DNA from: a bacterium
Lineage (GTDB): Bacteria > SZUA-182 > DTGQ01
Assembly (NCBI GenBank): GCA_040755755.1
Contig: JBFLZW010000041.1
Coordinates: 66,102-105,110, forward strand
DNA: 39,009 bases
Reading direction: 5' to 3'
The stretch's first letter is position 1. The number at the start of each line of letters is the position of its first letter. This document shows, piece by piece, positions 16,255 through 38,824 of this stretch. Made by a program: the position numbers and the translations under genes. The notes beneath the pieces are model-generated. The model was not told where the DNA came from, did no database searches, and was given only the letters and a program-made list of their open reading frames with translations.

Positions 16255-16485
16255 ATGATAAAAAATAATCGTTTTAAAAAGCAAAATTCAATGAATAAAC
16301 AAAGAACTATGACCACATCAGAAACTATGGAGTGCTTGCAAACTTCTAAGCCTGCTCTTTTGAAAATGGTTCATCAGGGTAAGATAAGAGCAAATAAGGC
16401 AGGACGTGAATACCGTTTTTTAAAATCTGAGTTAGACCGATTTCTTTTAGGCGAAATCGAACCATTAAATGCTGCATCGAAATGA
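16255..16485 (+). CDS. Small helix-turn-helix (excisionase/MerR-like HTH_17) DNA-binding protein
   Basis: 76 residues. The core TTSETMECLQTSKPALLKMVHQGKIRANKAGREYRFLKSELDRFL is the winged HTH_17/excisionase pattern: helix, turn, recognition helix (SKPALLKMVHQG), then the 'I.A.K.GREYRF..SELDRFL' wing and closing helix. It would bind DNA as a small regulator or recombination directionality factor. The first ATG (16255) lacks a good ribosome site, and the ATG at 16291 (residue 13) is an equally possible start. Its TGA overlaps the ATG of the coiled-coil gene, so the two form a unit. No integrase is nearby, which argues for a regulator more than an active excisionase. Confidence 0.72.
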   Translation: MIKNNRFKKQNSMNKQRTMTTSETMECLQTSKPALLKMVHQGKIRANKAGREYRFLKSELDRFLLGEIEPLNAASK

Positions 16486-16991
16486 TACCTAAGATCACAT
16501 TCCCAAAAGAAATGGCTAAAAAGGTAGTCAAGAAAGTATCGCTGGAAGTAATCTATGAGGTACTTGAAGAGCGAAGCGCGGAAATCAAGGCGGATGTAGC
16601 TGAATTAAAAACAGATGTAAGGGAGCTTAAGCAAAAGCGGGAAGAGGATTTCCGGTGCCTGAACCAAAAGATTGATACTGAAATCGGACAGGTAAGGCAG
16701 GAAATCGGACAACTGAACCAAAAGATTGATACTCAGATCGGGGGAGTAAGACAAGAGATAGGCCAGTTGAACCAAAAGATTGACACTGGAATCGGACAGG
16801 TAAGGCAGGAAATCGGCCAGTTGAACCAAAAGATTGATACTGAAATCGGACAGGTAAACCAGCGAATTGATACCCTTGGACAAAGAGTTGACAACTCAGG
16901 TACTCAATTAAATCAAAGAATGGATACCATCATACAGATGCTCATAGATATGAACCGGCAGTTAGTTGAAATAGCCAAACAGAAAAGCTAG
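16482..16991 (+). CDS. Coiled-coil protein with four 18-residue tandem repeats
   Basis: 169 residues, translationally coupled (ATGA) to the HTH gene. An N-terminal helix (FPKEMAKKVVKKVSLEVIYEVLEERSAEI) leads into a continuous predicted coiled coil. From Leu60 four units begin with L-N-Q-K-I-D-T (60-77, 78-95, 96-113, 114-131; last half diverged) and the pattern fades into QRVDNSGTQLNQRMDTIIQML. There are hydrophobic residues at 3-4 spacing, no cysteines, no membrane segment and no signal peptide. I do not recognise a named family. Coiled coils of this form appear in DUF1640-like and phage/tail-fibre-like proteins. The link to an HTH protein suggests an oligomerising partner or a small two-part system. 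Function is unknown. Confidence 0.7.
   Translation: MIPKITFPKEMAKKVVKKVSLEVIYEVLEERSAEIKADVAELKTDVRELKQKREEDFRCLNQKIDTEIGQVRQEIGQLNQKIDTQIGGVRQEIGQLNQKIDTGIGQVRQEIGQLNQKIDTEIGQVNQRIDTLGQRVDNSGTQLNQRMDTIIQMLIDMNRQLVEIAKQKS
16659..16874 (+). repeat. Four 54-bp tandem repeats encoding the coiled coil
   Basis: Units at 16659-16712, 16713-16766, 16767-16820 and 16821-16874 (the last diverged in its second half) are near-identical at the DNA level, differing mainly at a few third positions and at the codon between 'GATAC/ACT' and 'ATCGG'. The high DNA identity indicates recent expansion, so copy number is likely to vary between strains. Confidence 0.88.
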
Positions 16992-17552
16992 TCGGTCCCG
17001 GAAGGTGTCGTTACCACCATTCCGAGACCTGGCCTGCTCGACATGAGACTGTCGATACGGCGTATACACATCATTGCCCAAGAGCAAGAGAAGGGCAAAG
17101 GAAAATCCTTTCCCATCAAAACACACCAAAACGCACTATTTTCTCTGGGCGGATATTCCCTGAGGCCCTGGTTGGCAATACCAGCAGTGACACACACAGG
17201 GTGAGAGGTGTCGGGCCTATCCCATAAGCCAGGGCTGAAACCTGGATAAGTTATTGAGGGATATCCCAATTATTACACTACCCAAGGTGGATTCTCTCAT
17301 TCACCCTTACCCAGCATCCCCTGCCACAGAGGCTCCCTGCCTCAAGAGCATTTTCATTTGCATGAGGCTACTTACCAAAAAGCCCCCTCACCCCAGCCCT
17401 CTCCCCAAAGGGGCGAGGGAGAATTGTAGCCCTCTGAGCGGAGCGAGGGAGAAAAACATCTTCCTGAGCTCAATATCTCCTGGGCGAGAATTCCATCATA
17501 AAGCGAAAGCCCCCCATAATCCACAGAGAGACACAAGGAGCAGAGTACATAC
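16992..17552. other. 561-bp intergenic region with hairpin and repeat copies
   Basis: No convincing gene. The frames open here are short and mostly read the repeats. The first 290 bases are unique sequence of average composition, including a hairpin at 17093-17114 (GGGC-AAAGGA-AAA-TCCTTT-CCC) without a T-tract. Bases 17279-17480 hold the interspersed repeats described separately. The last 35 bases (CACAGAGAGACACAAGGAG...) supply the ribosome site of the radical SAM gene. The region separates the HTH/coiled-coil block from the second half of the polysaccharide locus, and a promoter for the latter may lie here, but I see no clear -35/-10 pair. Confidence 0.5.
17279..17480 (+). repeat. Palindromic interspersed repeats, intergenic copies 2 and 3
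   Basis: Two pieces lie side by side. Bases 17280-17310 (CCAAGGTGGATTCT-TCATTCACCC...) are the inverted counterpart of 421-450. Bases 17365-17478 (AGGCTACTTACCAA...AGCCCTCTCCCC-AAGGGGCGAGGGAG...CTCAATATC) align almost base for base with 21639-21738 inside the GH2 gene. The core CCCTCTCCCCAAAGGGGCGAGGG can fold, and a second partial palindrome (CCCTCTGAGCGGAGCGAGGGAG) follows. This is the type of REP-like element that reads as '(H)PSPLPKGARE' when it falls in a gene. Confidence 0.82.
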
Positions 17553-21347: not shown

Positions 21348-24300
21348 TTGAGCTGGTTGAAGCAGAGTATTTGCCTGATGCTTGATTTCCGGAGGAGCCA
21401 AAGCCAGAGGGTTTTGGCTTTTTTCTTGCCGGTTCTGCTCTGGGTGGTACCGATTCTGCTCACCGTGGTGTTAGTTCTCTTCTCCGTGCTGCCACTTTTT
21501 CTCTTCATGCCTCCTGATAGTGTGGCCAAGACGGCTCAGTCGGCGATCCAGGCAGGAACGTCCCCGGCCCGGCAGTCAGAAATGTCTCTGGCACAGACAG
21601 GAACGTCCTTGGCACAGGAGGGCAATGTAAGTCACTTTAGGCTACTTACCAAGAAAGCCGCCCCTCACCTGCCACAGGGTCTCCCTGCCAGCCCTCTCCC
21701 CAGAGGGGCGAGGGAGAAAAACGCTGCCCCGGACTCAATATCCACCTTTAAGTTAATAACAGTGGCACAGGCAGGAGGAACGTCCCCGGCCCAGGCAGAG
21801 AGGGGACCCCTGACCCGGCCGGGAATGGTCCTGAACCAGGATTGGGAAGTCGCCGAAGCACCTGATCTTGACTATGCTGCCTATTGCTCGCAATGGCAAA
21901 CGCTTGCCTGGAAAAGGATCGGCCGCCTGCCGCTTATTCAGCATTACCGGGAACCAAACCACTGCGCCTGGTACCGAAAAAAATTCTCCCTGGATAACCG
22001 CCTCCTGTCAGCGGAAGGAAAGGGAAAGTCCCTCCGGCTGACCTTTACCGATGTTCGCCACCTGGCCAGGATTTACCTGAACGGCAGGCTGGCAGGTGAG
22101 CATTTTGGCGGATACCTCCCCTTTTCCCTGGAGTGCGGCCACCTGCTGCAGACAGGGGAAAACGAGCTGGTAGTCGGTGTGCAGGACTGGACATCGGCCA
22201 TCAGCGCAGAGGCCATCGGGGCAGGGAAATACCAGGGGCAGGGGCAAGGCTATGGGTCTTCCTCCGGGAACATCAATCCCCTGCGGGAAGCCCAGGGCAT
22301 CCCGGCGGGTGATTATGCGGTGCCAAGCTATCCGGGATTTCCCGAACCGGGAACGATCATTGCCCCGATCGGCAGCAGTCACCGCAGGGCTGGAATCTGC
22401 GGCCAGGTGTATCTGGAAGCCATCCCCGATATTCGTATCGGGGAAGTGATCATCGAGCCGAAGCTTGACCAGCACAAGATCAGGGTGAAGGTCGGGATCG
22501 AGGCCAACCTCACAGGCGGCGGGCAGAGGGCAGCAAAGCCTGACGGGAAGGCGGACGAGAAGGGTGAAAATAACCATCACCCCCACCCAGCCTCCCTCCT
22601 CAAGGGGGAGGAGAGTAATGGAGGCTCACTCCTCAAGGGCAATGTCATTAACTTAGAGCAGCGATTTTCCTCCTCGCCCCGGCCCTCTCCCCTCAAGAGG
22701 GATAGTGAATGCTCCCATACAAGATGGGGAATATCCGAAAGGAAGCCATTGACTGTGACCTTTTGGTTGCGGGAGGTGGGGCTGTTGAATGAAGCCGGGG
22801 CAGGAAAACACCGGACCCCACAATACCGGAAAATCGGCCAGGCCACCGTCGAGCAGTTTGAGCAGAATCTGCAGGGTGAGCAGTATGTACAGGCTGCCGA
22901 AGGACAGACCTGGCTCATCTTCGAGGCAGAGCTTGAAAATGCGCAGCTCTGGGACCTCGATCACCCATTCCTGTACCAGATGAAAGTTACTCTTCAGGAA
23001 GGCACCGGCCAGGGGAAGTCTCTGGATGAGGGGAAATCGCCGAATCAGGGGAAAGGCGTTGCTGAGAACGTCATTGATGAGATGGAGGTCCGGTACGGAT
23101 TGCGGGACTGGCGAACCGAAGGGCCGTATTTTATTCTGAATGGAGACAGGATCAATCTTAAGGCGGCATCCATCATTTACGACAACAGCCTGACGGAAGA
23201 TGAGCTGAGGCGAAGGATTCATCATCTGAAGGAGGCTCATATCAATCACCTTCGTTTCCATAGTGAACCGCCGCCACCCTTCATACTGGATGTGTGCGAT
23301 GAAGAAGGAATGCTGGTAACTGTGGAGTCGGCCATCTATGGATCATACGTGGGCAGATACGATACCTCATTTACCAGCGAATTCTGGCAGCATGCCAGAG
23401 AGCATTGGCAGGGGCTGGTCAGAAGAGACAGAAATCACCCCTGTGTCATCATCTGGTGCATCGAGAACGAAAGCGTGGAATACGATGCAGGCCGCGGCGG
23501 AGAGGTCCGGTTCATGGAGCTTGGCATGGAGGTCAGGCGGCTTGATCCCCAGCGGCCAATCATGTATGAAGGGGGTATGGATTGCTTTGGCCTGGGTGAT
23601 ATCATTAACCTGCATTACCCCCACGAATTTCCCTTCTGGAACTGCCTGCCGAATGACGCATGGTGGCTGGAGCAGGCAAAGGGAGGGGGAAGCCGGAAAG
23701 GAAAGAAAAAGGCTGCCCCGGCTGCAGGTGGTGAGGCGGTGGACCGGAGCGCCGTGGCCGGTGATGAGCCAATGGACCGGAGCTCCGTTATTGGGGAAGA
23801 TACAGTGGGCGGCAATGCCATTGCAGGCGACGGGTCAGCGGTCTGGAATGCCAGAGCATATGACGTCTGCCTGCAGGAAGAGTGGCCAAAGCGGGATTGG
23901 GAGGGTAAAGGGATATACCTTGACTCCCTGTGGCGATGGCAGCCGGAGTACAGGTTCTGCTGGAAAAAAGATAAGCCGCTCTATCTGGGAGAAGAGCTTT
24001 ACCTGCCAACCACCACACCTGACCCGTATACCATTTTAATCGGTGATGATGCATATACGAGTAAGGACTGGAGAGCGGATAAAGATCAGGGGCAAGGACA
24101 GATGGAGTCGCAGCAACGACACCAAGAGCAGCAGCAATGGCAACGGCAGGAGGAGCGGAAAGGAGCTGTCTGGCGGTATTACCTCGAGGCCTACCGGCAG
24201 GCAGGTGTCTCAGGGGTCTGTCCCTGGGTGATAACCGGCGAAGAGAGAAAGGATAACCCCTTGTATCGTGCCTGTCAGGAGAGTTTTCAGCCGGTTGCGG

Positions 24301-26531
24301 TTTTTATCAAAGAGCATAATAACCGATTCTGGGAGGATGAGGAAGTCACCAGGACTGTTACTGTCTGCAATGATGAACGAAGAGACAGAAGCAAAGGTTT
24401 TCCTCTGGAGTCCCTGCCTCTGAAGTATCTTTCCCCAGTTGGGGATAACCGGCAGGCTGGAGATGCCTTCATCCTGGAGTGGCAGGTAGTATCATCATCG
24501 CCAGCTTCGGATAGCGGGACAGATAAGAGCGGTATAGCCTGCATAGCCCAGGGCAGGCAAACCTTTCTTCTTCCTCCCGGGCACAGGAAGGCAACAGCCA
24601 TGAGGTTCAAAATCCCCAAAGTCACCCAGCCAGGGCTTCAGCGGGAAAGATGGCAATTGCAGGTCAAGGTGAGCAAGAATGGACGGATACGGGATGAAAA
24701 GTCATGGGACATATGGGGATACCGGAAAGATGTGGGAAAAATTGCCAATACCCTTTGTGGGACGCCCATTTTCCTGTACGATCCGGATGGCACGACAGCC
24801 GAAGTTTTGACCAGGGCCGGAGTCAAGTATCAAAGGATAGAACCCGATGGTTCCCATTTCCCCCTTATCGAGAGGAAAGTTGATAATAACCATCCCCCCC
24901 ACCCAACATCCCCCGCCACATCTGAAGCTGGCCTGTTGATTCTGGGCAGAAATGCCTTCTCCTGTCTGGAAGGGAAAAAGACATCGATCGGCGTCAAGCC
25001 CCCCTGGCAGGAGCAGATTGACCGCTTCGTAAGCCGGGGAGGGGTACTGATCGCCTTTGAGCAGGAATTTCTCCCTGCCTGGCTGCCTGGCGGGATTACG
25101 GCAAACGCTCTGCACCATTCAACTATGGCTTTCCCCGGACGATGCGGCCATCCCCTTCTCAATGAAGAAATGACGGCTGAAAACCTGCGGTTTTGGGGCA
25201 GCGATAATTTTATCTCGCGCTATGATCTTAACCTGCCGGAGTCCGGGAATTATCGGAGCATTGTGGATAGCGGCGGCATGGGAGGACTGATTTATTCCCC
25301 CCTTCTGGAAATCACCCGGCAGGAAGGGGCCATGATTTTTTGCCAGATGCTGGCCATAAAGAAATGGGAGCCCGAACCGATGGCCAGGGTGCTGTTAAAA
25401 AACATCCTGTCGTATGCGGCGGAAAAAGCACGCGCAAAAAGTAGCCCGTACCAGGTTGCCGCTCAGGAGCAGGAGAGGATAGAGACTCGATCCTCCAGGA
25501 GCGGGACGTCCTCCTCGATCAGGGTGGGCGGGATATTCGGCAGGGGCGAAAATATCATGGTGTTTGACGGCCAGGGCGCAAACTGGGAGCACTTTGGCCA
25601 GGACCGGGATGAAATCCTGGCCTTTGTCAAAGCAGGAGGAAAGGTTCTCCTGCGCGAAATCGATGAAGAGAGTATCCGGTGGGTGCAGAAGGTTCTGCCG
25701 GTCGATTTGAAAAAGATACAGCCGGAGGAGATGCCGGTAGGGGTAAGAGAAAGGGATGTGGCCGCCCCTGCAAACTGGCCGGGCAATTTCCGCGCCGTGT
25801 ACTTGGCCCTTTACAACAGGGACGTATACTGGGTCGAGCCGCACTCGGAATTCCGGTACGATCGGGCTGACTTTGACCGGGGAATTGCAGATTATGCACT
25901 TGAGGTTCAGGATGCAACTAACGATGGGGATGGGGATATCGGAAACAGGGATTTTCGGGTGATCTCCTGGACCAGACCAAACGTCCTGATCGAGCTGGAC
26001 TATGGCCAGGGATTTTTTCTGATCGATCAGGTAAAATGGCCCGCAGAATGGGCGCGGGGAGGATTTAACGAAGCAAGGGCAAAAAGATACGCATCCTCGG
26101 TCCTGCACTATCTTGGCGTGACAATGCAGGAGAAAAAAGCCCCGGCAGAGGAAATCCTCATTCAGGCGGAGAACATGAGCTGCCGCACACCCGGCCAACC
26201 CCTCATCAGATGCCGCAGCCATGACTACTGGACCCTGTGCAGCAATAATTATATCAGCGATACCGTATATTTTGGGGCTCCCGGCGAGTATGCCTTTACC
26301 GTCAGAGCCAAATGCCGACGGCCCGATTCACCGCCTGTCATGGTTTTGACGATAGACGGTTTAACTGCCGGCATGCAGGTTGTTCCCTCGCTCTCCTGGG
26401 ACAGTTTCCGGTTTGCTGCCTGGGTGGAAGAGGGGGAACACGAGGTTTCTTTGAGCCTGGTGAATGCAGAGAATCCATATGGGGAAAAATATCTGTATGT
26501 GGACTGGCTCAGGATCGGAAATACACCTTAA
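21348..26531 (+). CDS. Membrane-anchored GH2-type glycoside hydrolase with in-frame repeat insertions
   Basis: 1727 residues from TTG with GGGAAGGAG about 11 bases upstream (ATG at 21378, residue 11, is an alternative). A hydrophobic anchor (22-53) would place the rest outside the cytoplasm. GH2 modules follow: sugar-binding jelly roll from Trp208 (WYRKKFSL...LTFTDVRHLARIYLNG) to about 290; immunoglobulin-like region to about 580; TIM barrel about 583-930 with RRDRNHPCVIIWCIENES (acid/base Glu708) and KPLYLGEELYLP (likely nucleophile Glu882); two flavodoxin/GATase-like domains (about 1140-1365 and 1395-1560); and a CBM-like beta-sandwich (1604-1727, opening ILIQAENM). Repeat-derived insertions occupy about 93-135, 408-465 and 1178-1191, plus Gln-rich linkers near 905-940. 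GH2 covers beta-galactosidase, mannosidase and glucuronidase, and the specificity is unknown. Sandwiched between the PHPT and the ligase, it probably trims or releases the nascent polysaccharide, as PslG does (inference). Confidence 0.85.
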   Translation: MSWLKQSICLMLDFRRSQSQRVLAFFLPVLLWVVPILLTVVLVLFSVLPLFLFMPPDSVAKTAQSAIQAGTSPARQSEMSLAQTGTSLAQEGNVSHFRLLTKKAAPHLPQGLPASPLPRGAREKNAAPDSISTFKLITVAQAGGTSPAQAERGPLTRPGMVLNQDWEVAEAPDLDYAAYCSQWQTLAWKRIGRLPLIQHYREPNHCAWYRKKFSLDNRLLSAEGKGKSLRLTFTDVRHLARIYLNGRLAGEHFGGYLPFSLECGHLLQTGENELVVGVQDWTSAISAEAIGAGKYQGQGQGYGSSSGNINPLREAQGIPAGDYAVPSYPGFPEPGTIIAPIGSSHRRAGICGQVYLEAIPDIRIGEVIIEPKLDQHKIRVKVGIEANLTGGGQRAAKPDGKADEKGENNHHPHPASLLKGEESNGGSLLKGNVINLEQRFSSSPRPSPLKRDSECSHTRWGISERKPLTVTFWLREVGLLNEAGAGKHRTPQYRKIGQATVEQFEQNLQGEQYVQAAEGQTWLIFEAELENAQLWDLDHPFLYQMKVTLQEGTGQGKSLDEGKSPNQGKGVAENVIDEMEVRYGLRDWRTEGPYFILNGDRINLKAASIIYDNSLTEDELRRRIHHLKEAHINHLRFHSEPPPPFILDVCDEEGMLVTVESAIYGSYVGRYDTSFTSEFWQHAREHWQGLVRRDRNHPCVIIWCIENESVEYDAGRGGEVRFMELGMEVRRLDPQRPIMYEGGMDCFGLGDIINLHYPHEFPFWNCLPNDAWWLEQAKGGGSRKGKKKAAPAAGGEAVDRSAVAGDEPMDRSSVIGEDTVGGNAIAGDGSAVWNARAYDVCLQEEWPKRDWEGKGIYLDSLWRWQPEYRFCWKKDKPLYLGEELYLPTTTPDPYTILIGDDAYTSKDWRADKDQGQGQMESQQRHQEQQQWQRQEERKGAVWRYYLEAYRQAGVSGVCPWVITGEERKDNPLYRACQESFQPVAVFIKEHNNRFWEDEEVTRTVTVCNDERRDRSKGFPLESLPLKYLSPVGDNRQAGDAFILEWQVVSSSPASDSGTDKSGIACIAQGRQTFLLPPGHRKATAMRFKIPKVTQPGLQRERWQLQVKVSKNGRIRDEKSWDIWGYRKDVGKIANTLCGTPIFLYDPDGTTAEVLTRAGVKYQRIEPDGSHFPLIERKVDNNHPPHPTSPATSEAGLLILGRNAFSCLEGKKTSIGVKPPWQEQIDRFVSRGGVLIAFEQEFLPAWLPGGITANALHHSTMAFPGRCGHPLLNEEMTAENLRFWGSDNFISRYDLNLPESGNYRSIVDSGGMGGLIYSPLLEITRQEGAMIFCQMLAIKKWEPEPMARVLLKNILSYAAEKARAKSSPYQVAAQEQERIETRSSRSGTSSSIRVGGIFGRGENIMVFDGQGANWEHFGQDRDEILAFVKAGGKVLLREIDEESIRWVQKVLPVDLKKIQPEEMPVGVRERDVAAPANWPGNFRAVYLALYNRDVYWVEPHSEFRYDRADFDRGIADYALEVQDATNDGDGDIGNRDFRVISWTRPNVLIELDYGQGFFLIDQVKWPAEWARGGFNEARAKRYASSVLHYLGVTMQEKKAPAEEILIQAENMSCRTPGQPLIRCRSHDYWTLCSNNYISDTVYFGAPGEYAFTVRAKCRRPDSPPVMVLTIDGLTAGMQVVPSLSWDSFRFAAWVEEGEHEVSLSLVNAENPYGEKYLYVDWLRIGNTP
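21627..21742 (+). repeat. Interspersed repeat inside GH2 gene, copy 1
   Basis: Aligns with the intergenic repeat at 17365-17478 (shared AGGCTACTTACCAA, CCCCTCAC, AGCCCTCTCCCC-A-GGGGCGAGGGAGA, CTCAATATC). Read in the GH2 frame it encodes residues about 93-132 (…LLTKKAAPHLPQGLPASP…), between the membrane anchor and the sugar-binding domain. Flanking it are degenerate copies of a CAGGAACGTCC-CGGC motif (about 21550, 21595, 21775). Confidence 0.85.
22570..22740 (+). repeat. Interspersed repeats inside GH2 gene, copies 2-4
   Basis: Contains TAACCATCACCCCCACCCAGCC plus the hairpin CTCCCTCCT-CAA-GGGGGAGGAG (compare the inverted copy at 397-430), a partial copy at 22620-22645 and CCCTCTCCCCTCAAGAGGG at 22683-22701. 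All are in frame (about residues 408-465; HHPHPASLLKGE, SLLKG, RPSPLKR). The insertion splits the immunoglobulin-like region of the enzyme between an IKVGIEANL-type strand and the strand opening KPLTVTFWLREVG. Confidence 0.82.
24884..24912 (+). repeat. Interspersed repeat fragment inside GH2 gene, copy 5
   Basis: AATAACCATCCCCCCCACCCAACATCCCC matches 22570-22592 (ATAACCATCACCCCCACCCAGC) and 17300-17325 (TTCACCCTTACCCAGCATCCCC). It encodes NNHPPHPTSP (about residues 1179-1188) in a loop of the first GATase-like domain. Confidence 0.72.
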
Positions 26532-31855: not shown

Positions 31856-34456
31856 ATGAGTACTTCATCGAATATTATGAGTTACTGGGATTACTGGGGT
31901 AAGGCCCGACCTTCAGAGGGGAGTGGCCCGACCTTTCACTTATTGCCATATCATTCTTTGGACGTAGCTGCGGTAGCTGCCCACTGGCTGAAAGCGGATG
32001 AAGCCCTGATGCGCTCTTTTCTTCGCAGTGGCGATGGTATTGAAGAGCATATACTCAAGGCATGGGTATTGTTTTTTGTTGCGCTCCATGACTTGGGTAA
32101 GTTTGACATACGGTTTCAGCTTAAGGCACGAGATGTTGCACTTAACCTCAATCCGCTATTTTCTGAAGCCGACGCTTCTGAGGCGAAAGATTTTGACCAT
32201 GGATCAGCAGGATTGAATTGGTTTATCAGAGAATTGCCTGACCTTGGATTCGATGGCGAGGTTATTGAAGCCCTGCAGTATTGGATGATAGCCGTTTTCG
32301 GGCATCACGGAAGAGGTTTGTATACAGGAAAAATTTCTCGACCAGGAGCCGATGATGCGGTAATTGAACATAATCGGCAAGCCCGGCGTGAGTGGAGTGA
32401 GATGCTTCGCAAGCTCTTCCTTACACCTGGAGGCATCCAGCGAGGGGATGTTCCGCCTGTTATTCCTCTTGTTCCTGAGCGCTTGGCTGGGTTCTGCTCT
32501 GTTTGTGATTGGCTGGGGTCGAATACTGATTTTTTCCCTTATGAAGATAAGCCGGACCAGGACTTAAATGAGTATTTCCTGAACCGTCAAACGCTGGCTG
32601 AAAAGGCGCTGTATGCCAGTGGTATGTTAAGAAGCCCCTGCCGGACAGGCGGCATGAATAGGCTATTCCCTGAACTTACAGCGAGAGGTATCCAGTCCCT
32701 TGCGGATGAATGGCCCAAAGAGCCTGGACTGACCCTCATTGAAGCCCCTACCGGATCGGGAAAAACCGAAGCTGCACTTGCCTATGCTTCAAGGCTCTTA
32801 GCCGCAGGATTGGCTGACAGTATCATATTTGCCCTGCCTACCCAGGCCACCGCCAATGCCATGTTGTCAAGGCTTGAAAAAGTCGCTGGGAAGCTTTTCC
32901 CTGGAGGTGGGAATGTAGTTCTGGCACACGGGCAAGCCAGATTCAACCGCGACTTTATTCAGTTGAAAGATAGAGCCTATGGAACATCTGTCCAAGGTGG
33001 GGAAGAAGCTTTCGCCCAATGTGCCAAGTGGTTAGCCGCCAGCCGCAAAAGAGTATTTTTAGGACAGGTTGGAGTTTGTACGATCGATCAGGTGCTTTTG
33101 TCTGTTTTACCCATTCGCCATCACTTTATCAGAGCATTCGGGGTCCGCAAGAGTGTCCTGATCATTGATGAAATTCATGCCTATGACAGCTATATGAATG
33201 GCCTTTTGGACATTGTTTTAAAAGCACAGCGTATGGCGGGTGGTTCTGCCATTTTACTATCCGCCACTTTGCCGTCCAGACGCAGGGAACAACTCTTTGC
33301 AGTCTGGGGTGTGCAGAGCAATGAATCAGAAAAGGGAAATGCCTATCCATTAGTCAGTCATGCTGGAAATAGCGGGCAAAGCGGACAGAGTGGGCAAAGT
33401 ATATGGGAGTCTCCTGAGCTTCTGGAAGAGTACAAGGTGGAAGTCTTGTGCGAGAAATCTGAGGAAATGCTGCCACAGCAGTCTTTGCTTGATGAAATTG
33501 TCCATGCAGCCAGATCAGGGGCGAGAGTAGTCGTTATCTGCAATCTGGTGGCCGAGGCGCAAAAGCTGGCTCGAAGGCTCAGGGAAATTTCTGGTATCGG
33601 AGTAGACTTGTTTCACTCCCGCTTTCGTTTTTGTGATCGGCAGAGAATCGAAGCACAGGTTTTATCAGGCTATGGGAAAGAGCGAAAAAATAACGAGGGG
33701 CGCATTCTGATAGCGACGCAGGTAGTGGAGCAAAGTCTGGATCTTGATTTTGATTGGATGATCACTCAACTTTGTCCTGTGGATTTGCTCTTTCAGCGTC
33801 TTGGCAGGTTACACCGCCATTCCCGGCAGCGCCCTGCCGGTTTTGAACCGGCCCGCTGCATTGTCCTGGTTCCAATCGGAGAGGATTACGGCAGACATAC
33901 GGCAATCTATGGAGACATCCAGGTCCTTTGGCGTACTCAGAAACTCCTGGAGCGCTCCCCAATAATATCTTTCCCTGGCGCTTATCGCGAATGGATTGAG
34001 GCAGTTTATGGTGATGAGAGCTGGCCACAGGAGCCTGAATATATTACTATGGCGCATCAAACCTTTATGGATAGCGAAGACGCAAAAAGGTTTTGCGCTC
34101 TGAACCTGGGCAGAGCGGATGCCAATCTGCTTGCTGATACTGACGGCAATGTGGCTGCTCTTACCCGCGATGGGGAAATGAGTCTGAGTGTCATACCGGT
34201 GGTGATGAAGAAAGGAAGACACTGCTTCCTTGACGGTACTGCGCTGGACAGCATTGATGAGCGGGAAGTCGACGAGGCTCTGAATCTGCAAGCCATTCCT
34301 GCCCCTCACTCATGGCGGTATTCCCTGCCAGAGAGTGAGGATGGGTTGTATTATTTGCCTATGGAATCAGACTCACATGGCGGATGGATATCCAGAATAA
34401 AAAAATCCACGTTTACTTATCATCCGGATTTCGGATTAGAAAGAGGTGAACTATGA
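31856..34456 (+). CDS. cas3: CRISPR-associated nuclease-helicase Cas3, type I-E
   Basis: 866 residues, GGAG six bases before ATG. The N-terminal HD nuclease has His33 (PYHSLDVA), His78-Asp79 (ALHDLGKFD) and the GHHGRGL segment. The SF2 helicase has EAPTGSGKTEAAL (Walker A 300-304), LPTQATANAMLSRL, DEIH (438-441), SATLPSRRR, and motif VI-like ATQVVEQSLDLDFD...PVDLLFQRLGRLHRH. After Cascade opens an R-loop on target DNA, Cas3 is recruited through Cas8e, nicks the displaced strand and degrades it processively. Length fits type I-E. A Ser-Gly-Gln triplet repeat (residues 506-514) sits in the linker after the first RecA domain. The stop overlaps the cas8e start (ATGA). Confidence 0.97.
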   Translation: MSTSSNIMSYWDYWGKARPSEGSGPTFHLLPYHSLDVAAVAAHWLKADEALMRSFLRSGDGIEEHILKAWVLFFVALHDLGKFDIRFQLKARDVALNLNPLFSEADASEAKDFDHGSAGLNWFIRELPDLGFDGEVIEALQYWMIAVFGHHGRGLYTGKISRPGADDAVIEHNRQARREWSEMLRKLFLTPGGIQRGDVPPVIPLVPERLAGFCSVCDWLGSNTDFFPYEDKPDQDLNEYFLNRQTLAEKALYASGMLRSPCRTGGMNRLFPELTARGIQSLADEWPKEPGLTLIEAPTGSGKTEAALAYASRLLAAGLADSIIFALPTQATANAMLSRLEKVAGKLFPGGGNVVLAHGQARFNRDFIQLKDRAYGTSVQGGEEAFAQCAKWLAASRKRVFLGQVGVCTIDQVLLSVLPIRHHFIRAFGVRKSVLIIDEIHAYDSYMNGLLDIVLKAQRMAGGSAILLSATLPSRRREQLFAVWGVQSNESEKGNAYPLVSHAGNSGQSGQSGQSIWESPELLEEYKVEVLCEKSEEMLPQQSLLDEIVHAARSGARVVVICNLVAEAQKLARRLREISGIGVDLFHSRFRFCDRQRIEAQVLSGYGKERKNNEGRILIATQVVEQSLDLDFDWMITQLCPVDLLFQRLGRLHRHSRQRPAGFEPARCIVLVPIGEDYGRHTAIYGDIQVLWRTQKLLERSPIISFPGAYREWIEAVYGDESWPQEPEYITMAHQTFMDSEDAKRFCALNLGRADANLLADTDGNVAALTRDGEMSLSVIPVVMKKGRHCFLDGTALDSIDEREVDEALNLQAIPAPHSWRYSLPESEDGLYYLPMESDSHGGWISRIKKSTFTYHPDFGLERGEL
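33371..33397 (+). repeat. 9-bp triple repeat inside cas3
   Basis: Three in-frame 9-base units (33371-33379, 33380-33388, 33389-33397) encode Ser-Gly-Gln three times in an inter-domain linker. The variation between units is two bases or fewer. Confidence 0.8.
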
Positions 34457-35925
34457 ATCTACTCATTGACCCATGGATACCGGTACTTCATCAAGGCCGG
34501 TTTCAGCACGTCACCCTGAAAGATGTGCTGTGCCAGGATGCTGATTGGCAACTGTGCTCTTTCAGGGATGATATGGAATTGGCTGCGCTGCAGCTTGTAA
34601 TTTGCCTTGTTCAGGTGATTTTCCCGCCGGATAGCCATAAGGAAGTTCGCCAGCGGCTGGCAACCCCAATGGATGAGGAGGAGTTTTCCTTAAGGGTATC
34701 CAAATACCTCGACATGTTTGTTTTGGATCACCCAAAACATCCTTTTATGCAAACACGCGGAGTCAAAGCCAAGGAATCTACACCCATGCAAAAGCTTTTT
34801 ATCGGTTACGATCGCTCATTTTTTAATGATCCCGATGAGATTTCCCGTGCCTGCCCTGCCTGTGTGGCTGTTGCACTCTTCAATCAGGCCAGTAACTGCC
34901 CAAGTTTTGGAGGTGGATTCAAAGGGAGTCTGCGCGGAAGCGCTCCGCTAACCACCCTGGTGTATGGTGAAAGCCTGCGTTCAACTATATGGCGAAACAT
35001 CCTGAGTCGAAATACCGGGGATCAGCAGTCGATGTCCTCTCTTGATGGCAATAACCAGCCAGGGTGGGTGGATCAGATAAAGAGTCAGGAAGTCATTTAT
35101 CCCCATAAAATAGGGTTGTTGAGAGGACTTTTCTGGCAGCCTGCACATGTAGAGGTGGAATGGCAAAATAGCAAGAGCCAGTGCCAAGCCTGCAACCAGG
35201 TCACGCATAAGCTGGCCATAGGGTTTAAAAAGGAAAAATTTAAATATGAAATTCAAGGCATATGGCTTCACCCCCACAGCCCCAGAGAGTGGAAGCTGGC
35301 CAAAGGCACACGAGAGGAAAAATATGCATCCTTTACCACTACAGCCCCGGCATGGACCCAGCTTAACACTTTCTTAACAGAGAGAGAAATTGGATCTGCA
35401 AAGGCAGGCCAACCTGCAAAGGCAGGTTATGTTCCATCGGCAGTGGTCAGTCAATTTCGGAAGGTATTTTTTGGTGAAGAGATCAATCTCATTGTTGGCG
35501 GCTACCGGGTAAATCAGGCATCTGTTCTGCAGCGGCGGCATGAGATGTTCAACTTGCCTGCAGGCTGGACTGAAAACATGGACAAGGTGGAGGAGTTGAT
35601 TGCTTTGGGCCTTAAGGTTAAGGATGAACTGAGAAAAAAACTCTTCGGCTTTGCCAAAAAGGTCCATGTACCTGGTCTTCCATCCCAGGCTGAAGAGCGT
35701 TTTTATCAAAGTTCTGAACCCCTCATTCACAAGACCCTGCGCACCATGAAGTGGCAGGAAGGGGAAAGGATCAAAGCAGATTTACTGGAACAGTTGAGCT
35801 CTCTGGCCAGGCAGATTTTCGAAGAGGTAACTCAATCCTACCGCCACGATCCGAAAATGATCAGAGCATTTGCCCTGAGCCGCCGAAGCCTTAACAGCGC
35901 TTTGAACAAATTATCCATCAGCTAA
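34453..35925 (+). CDS. cas8e: Cascade large subunit Cas8e (CasA/Cse1)
   Basis: 490 residues, close to the usual 500. The opening NLLIDPWIPVLHQGRFQHVTLKDVL is the Cse1 signature, followed by LQLVICLVQVIF, the HPFMQTRG segment, and cysteine pairs CPACVAVALFNQASNCPSFGGGF and CQAC that suggest a zinc site. Cas8e recognises the PAM, helps to place the target duplex and recruits Cas3. It is translationally coupled to cas3 (ATGA) and 14 bases ahead of cas11. An 18-base tandem duplication (from 35398) gives A-K-A-G-Q-P-A-K-A-G at about residues 316-325. Confidence 0.95.
   Translation: MNLLIDPWIPVLHQGRFQHVTLKDVLCQDADWQLCSFRDDMELAALQLVICLVQVIFPPDSHKEVRQRLATPMDEEEFSLRVSKYLDMFVLDHPKHPFMQTRGVKAKESTPMQKLFIGYDRSFFNDPDEISRACPACVAVALFNQASNCPSFGGGFKGSLRGSAPLTTLVYGESLRSTIWRNILSRNTGDQQSMSSLDGNNQPGWVDQIKSQEVIYPHKIGLLRGLFWQPAHVEVEWQNSKSQCQACNQVTHKLAIGFKKEKFKYEIQGIWLHPHSPREWKLAKGTREEKYASFTTTAPAWTQLNTFLTEREIGSAKAGQPAKAGYVPSAVVSQFRKVFFGEEINLIVGGYRVNQASVLQRRHEMFNLPAGWTENMDKVEELIALGLKVKDELRKKLFGFAKKVHVPGLPSQAEERFYQSSEPLIHKTLRTMKWQEGERIKADLLEQLSSLARQIFEEVTQSYRHDPKMIRAFALSRRSLNSALNKLSIS
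35398..35427 (+). repeat. 18-bp tandem repeat inside cas8e
   Basis: GCAAAGGCAGGCCAACCT (35398-35415) is followed by GCAAAGGCAGG again (35416-35426). The unit contains the small palindrome CCTGC-AAAG-GCAGG. It is in frame and sits in a variable loop. Confidence 0.75.
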
Positions 35926-35939
35926 AGAAAGGGTTGCCT

Positions 35940-36416
35940 ATGAGTGAACAGGCTTTAACAACCAAGGATCAAACTAATTTTGTTGAGTTTAACTTTGCTG
36001 AGCTGAAAACCCGCTTCGACAGTGCCTTGAGCAATGGTCAGCGTGCCGAAATTCGCAGAGTGCGTGATCCTGATGAACTGGATTGGCTGCCTTCCTTCTA
36101 TCGCCTGCTGCCGACAGGAGCACATGCGGACAGGCAGTGGCGACGCATCATCTTTCTGCTGCCATTTGCCAGGCAGACCGACGGTGCCGCCAGTCTGGGC
36201 GCACAACTGGCTAAGGCCAAGGTAAGTGAGGCGCGTCTATTTCAAATTATCAGGTCCAATTATCCCAATGATTTTCTTTACCTGCGGCGAATCCTGCAAC
36301 AGGTCCAGCCCTCTCTCGATTGGCAGCAGTTTGGGAAGATGCTTTATTATTGGGGGGACAACACCAAGCGGCATATTCTTGAGGATTATTTTCTAGCAGC
36401 CAAACCTGAAAAATAA
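35940..36416 (+). CDS. cas11: Cascade small subunit Cas11 (CasB/Cse2)
   Basis: 158 residues from ATG at 35940. The in-frame TTG at 35934 lies too close to the AAGAAAGGG ribosome site to be the start. The helical protein has the family pattern LPSFYRLLPTG, WRRIIFLLPFARQTDGAASLGAQLA, SEARLFQIIRSNYPNDFLYLRRILQQVQPSLDWQQFGKMLYYW...KRHILEDYF. Two copies form the belly of Cascade and stabilise the displaced strand. Length matches E. coli Cse2 (160). It is preceded by a 14-base gap and followed by a 31-base gap before cas7e. Confidence 0.94.
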   Translation: MSEQALTTKDQTNFVEFNFAELKTRFDSALSNGQRAEIRRVRDPDELDWLPSFYRLLPTGAHADRQWRRIIFLLPFARQTDGAASLGAQLAKAKVSEARLFQIIRSNYPNDFLYLRRILQQVQPSLDWQQFGKMLYYWGDNTKRHILEDYFLAAKPEK

Positions 36417-36447
36417 TGAGAAAAACAATTGACTTGAGGAGAGAAAG

Positions 36448-37593
36448 ATGAGCGAAAAAAACTTCCTTAATATTCACGTAATTATATCCCATAACCCCTC
36501 CTGTTTGAACCGCGATGACATGAATATGCAAAAATCCGCCATATTCGGAGGTGTCAGGCGGGTACGGGTCTCAAGCCAGTGCCTGAAGAGAGCCATACGC
36601 AAGAGTGAGTATTACCTGAATAATCTGGGCGAGCCCTCTGTTCGGACGCGGGATTTGAACAGATTGAAAGAGATTTATGCAAGACAGCTTAAAGATAGCT
36701 TTTCTCCCGACTTCGTGTCCGAAGTGATAGACAGGATTGCTGGTGCAGGAAAGTTTAACAAAAAAGATAAAGATAATGATAAAGGTGAAGAAGACTCCGA
36801 TGATAAAGATACCAAGGGAAAACAGGCAGTTGCCCCCTGGAGTATAATGGAGGTGGAGAGGATTTGCAAAGTCATACAGCAAGCCCAAGCTCAAGGTGAA
36901 GATTTAGATGAAAAAAGCCTGAAAAAACTGCTTGAGAAAGAGTCTGGACCCTTACTCAAGGCCATGTCAAACTCTATTGATATCGCTCTGTCAGGGCGGA
37001 TGGCTACTTCCGGCCTCATGAGTTCCATCGACGGTGCGCTGGCACTCAGTCATGCCATAACCACACATGCCGTTGATGCGGACATTGACTGGTTTACTGC
37101 AATTGATGATCTGGTGGTAGACGAAGGTGAAGTTGGTGCCGGACATCTGAATACCCAGGAATTCAGTGCCGGAGTCTTCTACCGATATGCCAGTTTGAAT
37201 ATCCGGCAACTGGCTGCTAATATGGGAGGAGCCACAAGACCGGAGGCACTTGTCGTGGCAGCTCACCTGGTGCATCTTTTATCTACAGTTGTACCGACTG
37301 CCAAACAAAATTCTTTTGCGGCTTTCAACCCAGCGGATATGGTCATGACCTCATTCAGCGACATGCCGCTTTCCGCAGCCAATGCTTTTGAGCAGCCAGT
37401 TGAAAGAGACCGGAAAAAGGGAGGATATCTGATACCCTCTATCAAGGCTTTCGAAGATTACATGGATCGGGTTTATACTGGCTTTGGCCTTGATGATCGA
37501 AAGGCGGCCTTTTCCCTATGGAATACTGCTCTTGAGCCTAAAAAAGCCACTTTGGAAGAACTGAAAAAATGGGTTATGAATGACGGAGTATGA
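36448..37593 (+). CDS. cas7e: Cascade backbone subunit Cas7e (CasC/Cse4)
   Basis: 381 residues, GAGGAG about seven bases before ATG. Opening NFLNIHVIISHNPSCLNRDDMNMQKSAIFGGVRRVRVSSQCLKRAIR is the Cas7e hallmark. DIALSGRMATSG, VDADIDWFTAIDDL, GAGHLNTQEFSAGVFYRYASLNI and SAANAFEQPV also match. Six copies bind the crRNA spacer and divide the guide into segments. A highly charged Lys/Asp/Glu stretch at about residues 110-130 is longer than in standard members and likely sits in the thumb or web region. This could alter target binding or simply be a tolerated linker (inference). Confidence 0.96.
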   Translation: MSEKNFLNIHVIISHNPSCLNRDDMNMQKSAIFGGVRRVRVSSQCLKRAIRKSEYYLNNLGEPSVRTRDLNRLKEIYARQLKDSFSPDFVSEVIDRIAGAGKFNKKDKDNDKGEEDSDDKDTKGKQAVAPWSIMEVERICKVIQQAQAQGEDLDEKSLKKLLEKESGPLLKAMSNSIDIALSGRMATSGLMSSIDGALALSHAITTHAVDADIDWFTAIDDLVVDEGEVGAGHLNTQEFSAGVFYRYASLNIRQLAANMGGATRPEALVVAAHLVHLLSTVVPTAKQNSFAAFNPADMVMTSFSDMPLSAANAFEQPVERDRKKGGYLIPSIKAFEDYMDRVYTGFGLDDRKAAFSLWNTALEPKKATLEELKKWVMNDGV

Positions 37594-37605
37594 GGTGTAT
37601 GAGAT

Positions 37606-38262
37606 ATGAGAGAGTATTTAATTTTGCGATTACAAGGGGTAATGCAAAGCTGGGGGGGACATACTTATGAGGACTATCGGCCAAGCAGCCTTTTCCCATC
37701 CCGCAGCGGCCTGATTGGTTTATTAGCTGCCTGCCTGGGAATAGACCGGCAGGATAATGCAAGGCAGCAAGCCTTATCAGACAGCTTCATCTTTGCCGTT
37801 CGTTCTGATGAGAGCAAACACCCGGTCCGAAAGGTTATTGATTTTCATACGGTTATGGATGCCCGCAAGGTGGATGGAACGGTTAACAAGAATCCGGTAG
37901 TTTCAAGGCGTGAATATCTCTATGATATTTGCTTTACAGTGGCCATGCAATTCAGGGAAGGAGCTTGTTTTAGCCTGGAAGCTGTTAAAAAGGATATCCA
38001 ATGTCCTGTCTACACACCCTTTTTAGGGCGGCGGTCCTGTCCTTTGGGACAGCCGTTATTCCATTCCGTTGTTTCGGCCAATAGCCTTTTAGCTGCTTTA
38101 TCCATGATTGAGCCCAAACGCGGCACTGTTTACAGCGAAGAAGCAGAAGGGAGCTCAAATCGTCTGGTTATGCGGGACATGCCTCTGTTCACCGGAAAGC
38201 GGCAATTTTCCACACGCTCCGTTTTTATTCATGCACAAGGAGGCCAAGATGCACTTAAGTGA
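37606..38262 (+). CDS. cas5e: Cascade subunit Cas5e (CasD)
   Basis: 218 residues, close to the family's 224. The N-terminus YLILRLQGVMQSWGGHTYEDYRPSSLFPSRSGLIGLLAACLGI is the canonical Cas5e RAMP start, followed by VSRREYLYDICFTVAM (crRNA 5'-handle binding region) and YTPFLGRRSCPLGQPLF. It caps the Cas7 backbone and holds the 5' handle of the crRNA. The gap after cas7e is 12 bases, and its end overlaps the cas6e start by 14 bases. Confidence 0.95.
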   Translation: MREYLILRLQGVMQSWGGHTYEDYRPSSLFPSRSGLIGLLAACLGIDRQDNARQQALSDSFIFAVRSDESKHPVRKVIDFHTVMDARKVDGTVNKNPVVSRREYLYDICFTVAMQFREGACFSLEAVKKDIQCPVYTPFLGRRSCPLGQPLFHSVVSANSLLAALSMIEPKRGTVYSEEAEGSSNRLVMRDMPLFTGKRQFSTRSVFIHAQGGQDALK

Positions 38263-38824
38263 ACTTTCCATGGATTGGTCATTGACTCAAAATCCCTATA
38301 AAATTCATCGGCATCTCTGGCAGGCTTTTCCTGGGATGCCCGATAGCAATCGCCCGTTTTTATTCCGCGTAAATCCAGGGAAAAAGGGAGAACCCTCACA
38401 GGTTATAATGCAATCGGATGTTACTCCTAATCGAGCGTCATTGCCTCACGGGTGTTCACTGCTGCGAACCAAGGGAGTAAGTCCTTCTTTCAGAGAGGGC
38501 CAATTCCTGCGCTTTCTCGTATGCGCCAACCCGACGAAACGGCTGAATCAAGCCCGCTGTCGAGTACCCCTCATTGATGAAACGGCATTAATCGATTGGC
38601 TGGCAGGTAAACTAAATGAGGCGGCGGAACTTGAAGAAGCCCAGGTTTTCAGCAAGAGAATCCTTTACTTTCGCAAGGATAACCAGCCGGGTAAGATAGT
38701 AACCGTAACCTTTTCCGGCATCCTTCTCGTCAGGTCTCCTGAAAAACTGCTTAACCTCGTGCAGAGGGGAATAGGTCCTGCCAAGAGTTTTGGCTGCGGG
38801 CTTCTTTCCCTGGCGAGGGCGTGA
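38249..38824 (+). CDS. cas6e: CRISPR RNA endonuclease Cas6e (CasE)
   Basis: 191 residues from ATG at 38249, fixed by a perfect AGGAGG five bases upstream. The frame stays open further left inside cas5e, but those residues lack Cas6e patterns. YKIHRHLWQAFP gives the predicted catalytic His20 (Cas6e uses a His near this position to cut the repeat RNA). The C-terminal glycine-rich loop is GIGPAKSFGCGLLSLARA. The processed hairpin product stays bound at the Cascade head. The stop TGA is two bases before the cas1 ATG, confirming one operon. Confidence 0.95.
   Translation: MHLSELSMDWSLTQNPYKIHRHLWQAFPGMPDSNRPFLFRVNPGKKGEPSQVIMQSDVTPNRASLPHGCSLLRTKGVSPSFREGQFLRFLVCANPTKRLNQARCRVPLIDETALIDWLAGKLNEAAELEEAQVFSKRILYFRKDNQPGKIVTVTFSGILLVRSPEKLLNLVQRGIGPAKSFGCGLLSLARA

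Follow-up and report, generated by a model that had tools for sequence, protein, structure and literature searches.

How can a protein-coding gene stay open through DNA that is repeated elsewhere in the genome? The question arises from a gene for a GH2 protein in the window, the 39,009-nucleotide stretch of bacterial DNA analyzed here, in which a preliminary description had reported REP-like palindromic repeats lying in frame. The inserts very probably belong to two short non-autonomous DNA transposon (MITE) families, here called A and B, whose in-frame copies were kept after selection.

The GH2 gene and its three inserts

The gene, its inserts, and the related intergenic copies lie in the window as follows.

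21348-26531, + strand: GH2 host gene, 1727 codons, no stop across all three inserts
21620-21766, + strand: insert 1, 147 bp, an element B read in frame +3 as EGNVSHFRLLTKKAAPHLPQGLPASPLPRGAREKNAAPDSISTFKLITVA, aa 91-140
22555-22737, + strand: insert 2, 183 bp, an element A that contains a B-like piece and is read in frame +3 as DEKGENNHHPHPASLLKGEESNGGSLLKGNVINLEQRFSSSPRPSPLKRDSECSHTRWGISE, aa 403-464
22637-22654, + strand: B-type element end nested in insert 2, GGGCAATGTCATTAACTT
22724-22737, - strand: right terminal inverted repeat of insert 2, CGGATATTCCCCAT, with 2 mismatches to CAGATGTTCCCCAT
24844-24924, + strand: insert 3, 81 bp, an internally deleted element A read in frame +3 as PDGSHFPLIERKVDNNHPPHPTSPATSE, aa 1166-1193
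380-470, - strand: intergenic copy in which other flanks border the A core; the open frame around it has a negative coding score
17264-17480, + strand: intergenic composite from repeat matches, an A-core-related piece and then a B element

The GH2 start codon is TTG at 21348, and an ATG follows shortly downstream. A domain search shows an N-terminal signal or transmembrane stretch, followed by PF02837, PF00703, and PF02836. The N-terminal, middle, and TIM-barrel domains of GH2 are present, and the same parts match solved GH2 enzymes. In a coding-potential profile (model trained on 325 long ORFs), the GH2 frame scores best through nearly the whole gene, with a dip at the inserts. The insert lengths of 147, 183, and 81 bp are each divisible by 3 and hence frame-neutral. 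The earlier observation that three GH2 stretches match repeat copies elsewhere in the window holds, extends to the genome, and includes a frame open through all of them. The three stretches are real, and insert 3 is larger than the 24884-24912 first given for it. A single repeat type for all three does not hold, as insert 1 is of family B, and inserts 2 and 3 are of family A.

Insert 1 has the signal stretch on one side and the mature domain on the other. It is assigned by its B inverted ends, GGGCAATG..., through comparison with the complete B copy in C67:60758-61049 of the same genome, and its exact ends are blurred by AQAGTSPA-type repeats on its flanks. Insert 2 sits within the second GH2 (beta-sandwich) domain, and its left end is missing. 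Clean target duplications belonging to inserts 1-3 were looked for and not found. A structure model (AlphaFold with a two-sequence alignment) has a pLDDT of 33, which is too poor for placing the inserts in the fold. Candidate GH2 tryptic peptides that span insert sequence are GENNHHPHPASLLK and GEESNGGSLLK.

GH2 orthologues in relatives have 1557 and 1513 aa. The one from the same genus (isolate HOT.CON.50, 66% identity) and one from the same order lack the ~60 residues of insert 2, with both sides aligning. This is the empty site that the preliminary description proposed to look for in related homologues, and it answers the ancestral peptide that the same description named as its counter-case. 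The linker that holds insert 1 is absent from both orthologues, and the insert-3 loop has an unrelated sequence in the congener. The congeneric N6 DNA methylase (66% identity) lacks ~80 inserted residues, and its catalytic domain runs straight into the C-terminal domain. The alignments demonstrate empty sites for GH2 insert 2 and for the methylase. A clean empty site was not obtained for the phage head protease, whose relatives align well only as far as the insert, nor for the HEAT lipoprotein, where the congener has a long unrelated linker.

These empty sites refute the reading that the inserts are ancestral protein sequence and the intergenic copies decayed gene fragments. The open frame fits that reading and nothing further does, while at least 10 unrelated genes share the peptide and the element carries inverted ends and target duplications. 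It has practically no probability left.

In the same-order GH2, the insert-3 loop holds a different palindrome, TGTCATTCCGGCGAAGGCCGGAATCC, which has 65 copies in that genome versus 0 for the control. One GH2 loop has therefore received two unrelated repeats in two lineages. At C98:22349-22374 of that relative, the loop palindrome is in frame and gives the peptide CHSGEGRNPG.

Ends, duplications, and a probable source of mobility

Element A is a unit of ~123 bp. Its basic form measures 122-125 bp in an alignment of complete copies, it reaches 292 bp with nested elements, and it has no transposase gene of its own. Its ends are 14-bp terminal inverted repeats, CAGATGTTCCCCAT...ATGGGGAACATCTG. 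The 14-mer CAGATGTTCCCCAT has 77 genome matches at no more than 1 mismatch, versus 1 for the reversed control. In the 19 two-ended copies, the left and right 9-bp flanks have an identity of 0.561, versus 0.255 for a null of mismatched left/right pairings, and flank identity at other lengths is 0.20-0.30. The 9-bp duplication matches at 8/9 or better in 5 of the 19 (three of them perfect) and at 4/9 or less in 9 of the 19, which are read as old copies. The A consensus folds into a long stem (z = -5.3). Element A is a MITE: short, with inverted ends and a fixed 9-bp duplication. The 14-bp ends and the 9-bp duplications indicate that it was spread by a target-duplicating transposase and not as a REP. 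The earlier suggestion that the repeats may be spreading is borne out as past transposition, recorded in 9-bp target duplications, some of them perfect. TGTCAA is weakly enriched ~18-25 bp outside the A ends on both sides, perhaps as a target preference.

Family B has the ends GGCAATGTCATTAACTT. A complete 169-bp B is nested inside the A copy at C67:60758-61049, and insert 2 contains a B-type end; A and B elements therefore form mosaics. At C22:1591-1622 of the same genome, GGGCAATGTCATTAACGTTAATGACATTGCCC consists of two B ends head to head with zero spacing, perhaps a minimal B element.

The 5.26-Mb genome contains at least 48 matches to an insert-2 query (best other copy E 7e-22) and at least 43 to a 17279-17480 query. 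With the 77 end matches, these are the further genomic copies anticipated in the preliminary description, and such matching far exceeds chance. An 800-kb sample, contiguous from three contigs and picked regardless of repeats, contains 16 A and 8 B elements. Extrapolation from this sample gives an estimated ~105 A and ~53 B elements, about 150 copies in the whole genome.

The center of A is a C-rich palindrome, TCACCCCCACCCAGCCTCCCCC.TCAAGGGGGAGGAG. Lacking the A ends, and often as inverted doublets, the A core recurs in other genera and beyond the class, with 85-97% identity. The label "REP-like" is thus apt for the C-rich core but not for the mobile unit, a MITE of transposon type bounded by inverted ends. 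If the repeats were REPs moved by a Y1 transposase (RAYT), the apparent ends would be incidental. Such REP-like inverted doublets in relatives and other phyla favor this explanation, as do six Y1_Tnp matches in the genome, the nearest to a repeat being ~1.2 kb from an A copy (C1:256264 versus C1:257590). No other A or B copy is close to a Y1_Tnp gene, and the ~123-bp unit differs from the 20-40-bp palindrome linked to a RAYT gene that characterizes REP/RAYT systems. Y1 transposition is not known to duplicate 9 bp of target or to depend on 14-bp inverted ends. Both are present in A, and the A ends also occur on a different, longer element in the congener. A RAYT origin is thereby largely refuted and very improbable.

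The congener has 218 matches to the 14-bp A end, versus 1 for the control, and nearly all lie 60-77 bp from contig ends, as expected because an assembly breaks at many near-identical copies. This suggests about 100 near-identical insertion sequence copies and a recent burst in that genome. The A-type ends there border a different, longer interior. The reverse strand of the longest visible piece (490 bp) encodes 102 residues resembling the C-terminus of a DDE transposase; their only library match, to IS1634, falls below the threshold (E 0.12). Searching Pfam and plasmids with this fragment gave no match. A complete congener element with A ends was not found assembled, and its transposase side is seen as the 102 C-terminal residues. 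It is plausible that this element encodes a DDE-type transposase, the mobilizer of A. In the window's own genome, neither a transposase with A ends nor a homologue of the fragment was found. By analogy with MITEAba12 and ISAba12 (PMC6382973), the natural reading is that the transposase acts in trans or has been lost there. Two inverted ends on C36, separated by 2442 bp, do not mark an autonomous copy, since the right one belongs to an ordinary A with its own perfect duplication.

In-frame copies in unrelated genes

Peptide search and DNA scans found 13 in-frame insertions of element A in 11 genes, and the frame-3 peptide of A has 80 matches genome-wide. The genic A copies are as follows.

GH2: two
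N6 DNA methylase: one
Phage head maturation protease: one
NB-ARC protein: one
KR-ACP-reductase protein: one
HEAT lipoprotein: one
PKS on C15: two
PKS on C74: one; a paralogue is on C56
FliK: one, at C18:153113-153286
FHA protein: one
LVIVD protein: one

Genic B copies are firmly placed in two genes, GH2 and that of a RecQ/UvrD-type helicase protein; two more are possible. The genic insertions lie mostly between annotated domains. The tolerance of repeats inside proteins that was first proposed from GH2 is supported by open frames in 11 genes, with the inserts mostly in apparent linkers.

Misjoining of repeat sequence into genes during assembly is exceedingly unlikely. The assembly is a draft of 88 contigs, which leaves room for such errors, but the insertions affect many independent genes on different contigs, with frames intact on both sides and domain content preserved, and sequence differences among the copies show that they do not stem from a single misplaced contig. 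Single-base errors are possible in a metagenome assembly but would more often close frames than open them.

A six-frame scan shows all genic A copies in sense orientation and in frame +3, adding ...DEEGENNHHPHPASPLKGEE... to the protein. The C30 copy, labelled with another frame, still contains the frame-3 peptide, following an indel. At C1:112322, C18, and C49, long antisense frames were taken to be non-genes or to shadow sense genes. The A consensus is open from end to end in three of six frames, and frame +3 is the hydrophilic one, with a GRAVY of -1.21 versus -0.26 and +0.54 in the other two. Nine of the 13 genic A copies were retrieved through DNA similarity or ends and not through the peptide. 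The chance that these nine have one common frame is ~1.5e-4, assuming independence and equal use of the three open frames.

In the 800-kb sample, the fraction in genes, a quantity singled out by the preliminary description, is 4 of 24 elements, whereas 68% of the DNA lies in ORFs of at least 300 codons. Insertions into genes therefore appear to be mostly purged.

The uniform frame and orientation could also mean that positive selection keeps the genic copies as a useful flexible linker or an mRNA regulatory stem. In line with this are the recurrent copies in modular-protein linkers (PKS, FliK, FHA), a different long linker at the HEAT site of the congener, the different repeat in the same-order GH2 loop, and the strong stem in A. 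In contrast, the strong depletion of genic copies is expected if insertions are mostly harmful, the inserts are highly heterogeneous in both length and sequence, and the coding score dips inside them. Adaptive retention is accordingly judged unlikely, and the inserted peptides are most likely selectively neutral or close to it.

In the preferred reading of non-autonomous transposons filtered by selection, element A would be moved in trans by a DDE-type transposase like that of the congener, which has the same ends. The 123-bp unit and the 9-bp duplication make 132 bp or 44 codons, and a canonical insertion would keep the frame. The frame of insertion would be random, and purifying selection would remove disruptive or hydrophobic insertions. 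Survivors would encode a flexible linker rich in Gly, Pro, His, and Glu in loops and interdomain regions. In GH2, three events, later altered by deletion and nesting, would have added ~137 residues. We infer from sequence that the inserts are translated and that the proteins are active, and the elements may still be mobile.

A further step, that a transposon lineage became adapted to coding space and that passage through genes shaped element A, is doubtful. The length and duplication of A together are divisible by three, one open frame is hydrophilic, and expansions tend to come in multiples of three. If adapted in this way, A would spread by itself and supply modular proteins with linkers.

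The FliK copy is 174 bp long and has a perfect 9-bp duplication, AACACACCC. It lies in frame in the repetitive part of the gene for a 2259-aa FliK (hook-length ruler) and looks recent. The insertion might alter hook length.

Relation to known palindromic repeats and MITEs

RPE: The RPEs of Rickettsia and related Wolbachia elements are palindromic repeats of 100-150 bp, both intergenic and genic, and RPEs lie in frame in functionally unrelated genes, where they occupy solvent-exposed or unstructured sites (PMC10969869, PMC2229807, PMC3767692, PMC2996958). Element A resembles them as a short palindromic repeat that occurs in frame in several unrelated genes with orthologues lacking the insert. 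The likeness first drawn to RPEs is upheld by in-frame palindromic inserts in 11 genes and relatives with empty sites. It is one of behavior, and membership in the RPE families is not claimed; A is GC-rich at its core and not known to be related. A review lists the RPE target duplication as unknown (PMC2229807, Table 1), whereas A has demonstrable 9-bp duplications and ends common to a longer congener element with a transposase-like C-terminus. Judged by these features, A appears to work like a new family of the RPE kind, with hallmarks of mobility that RPEs lack.

ERIC and Correia: Besides RPEs, ERIC and the 107-bp Correia element also form in-frame MITE fusions (PMC10969869, PMC2229807, PMC2759123). 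The ERIC/RU-1 of enterobacteria and the Correia element of Neisseria have 5'-TA-3' termini (PMC2229807). In contrast, A has variable 9-bp duplications, and every genic copy found has one frame and one orientation. Compared with the known in-frame MITEs, the new points are the hallmarks of transposition, an element with these ends in a congener, and the recent-looking FliK copy.

MITEAba12: This 113-bp MITE of Acinetobacter has 16-bp inverted ends common to a DDE insertion sequence (ISAba12), 9-bp target duplications, and an interior unrelated to its parent (PMC6382973). Element A is similar in size, inverted ends, and 9-bp duplications. MITEAba12 differs in being AT-rich, and the description has it disrupting hns or forming short fusions at its ends; in-frame passage through the interior of many genes is not described for it.

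QMITE2: QMITE2 of Coxiella, a MITE of 150-190 bp, has direct repeats of 7-11 bp and contains a REP, comparable to the REP-like core of A; according to its abstract, it is mainly intergenic or in 3' UTRs, and the abstract does not report systematic in-frame genic insertions (PMC5896051).

REP/RAYT: Element A has a C-rich palindromic core, found as inverted doublets in other genomes, in common with REPs. However, it is longer than REPs, which are 20-40 bp (PMC3733652), and has inverted ends and target duplications.

The best-studied case of spreading protein-coding palindromes, the RPEs, is without an established target duplication (PMC2229807). Here the inverted ends with their 9-bp duplication, a likely source of transposase, the empty sites, and the recent-looking FliK insertion can all be traced within a single genus. 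The passage from selfish DNA to protein sequence becomes testable because a defined transposon can be read in one genus. For annotation, peptides like HPHPASPLKGEE in unrelated proteins of this genome should be taken as transposon-derived and not as homologous domains.

Other features of the window: Type I-E-like CRISPR-Cas genes occupy 31856-38824 and encode Cas3, Cse1, Cse2, Cas7 (CT1975), Cas5, and a Cas6-type protein; no CRISPR repeat array was found in the last 185 bases of the window. A small coiled-coil-like ORF at 16482-16991 has a 54-bp tandem repeat in its coding sequence.
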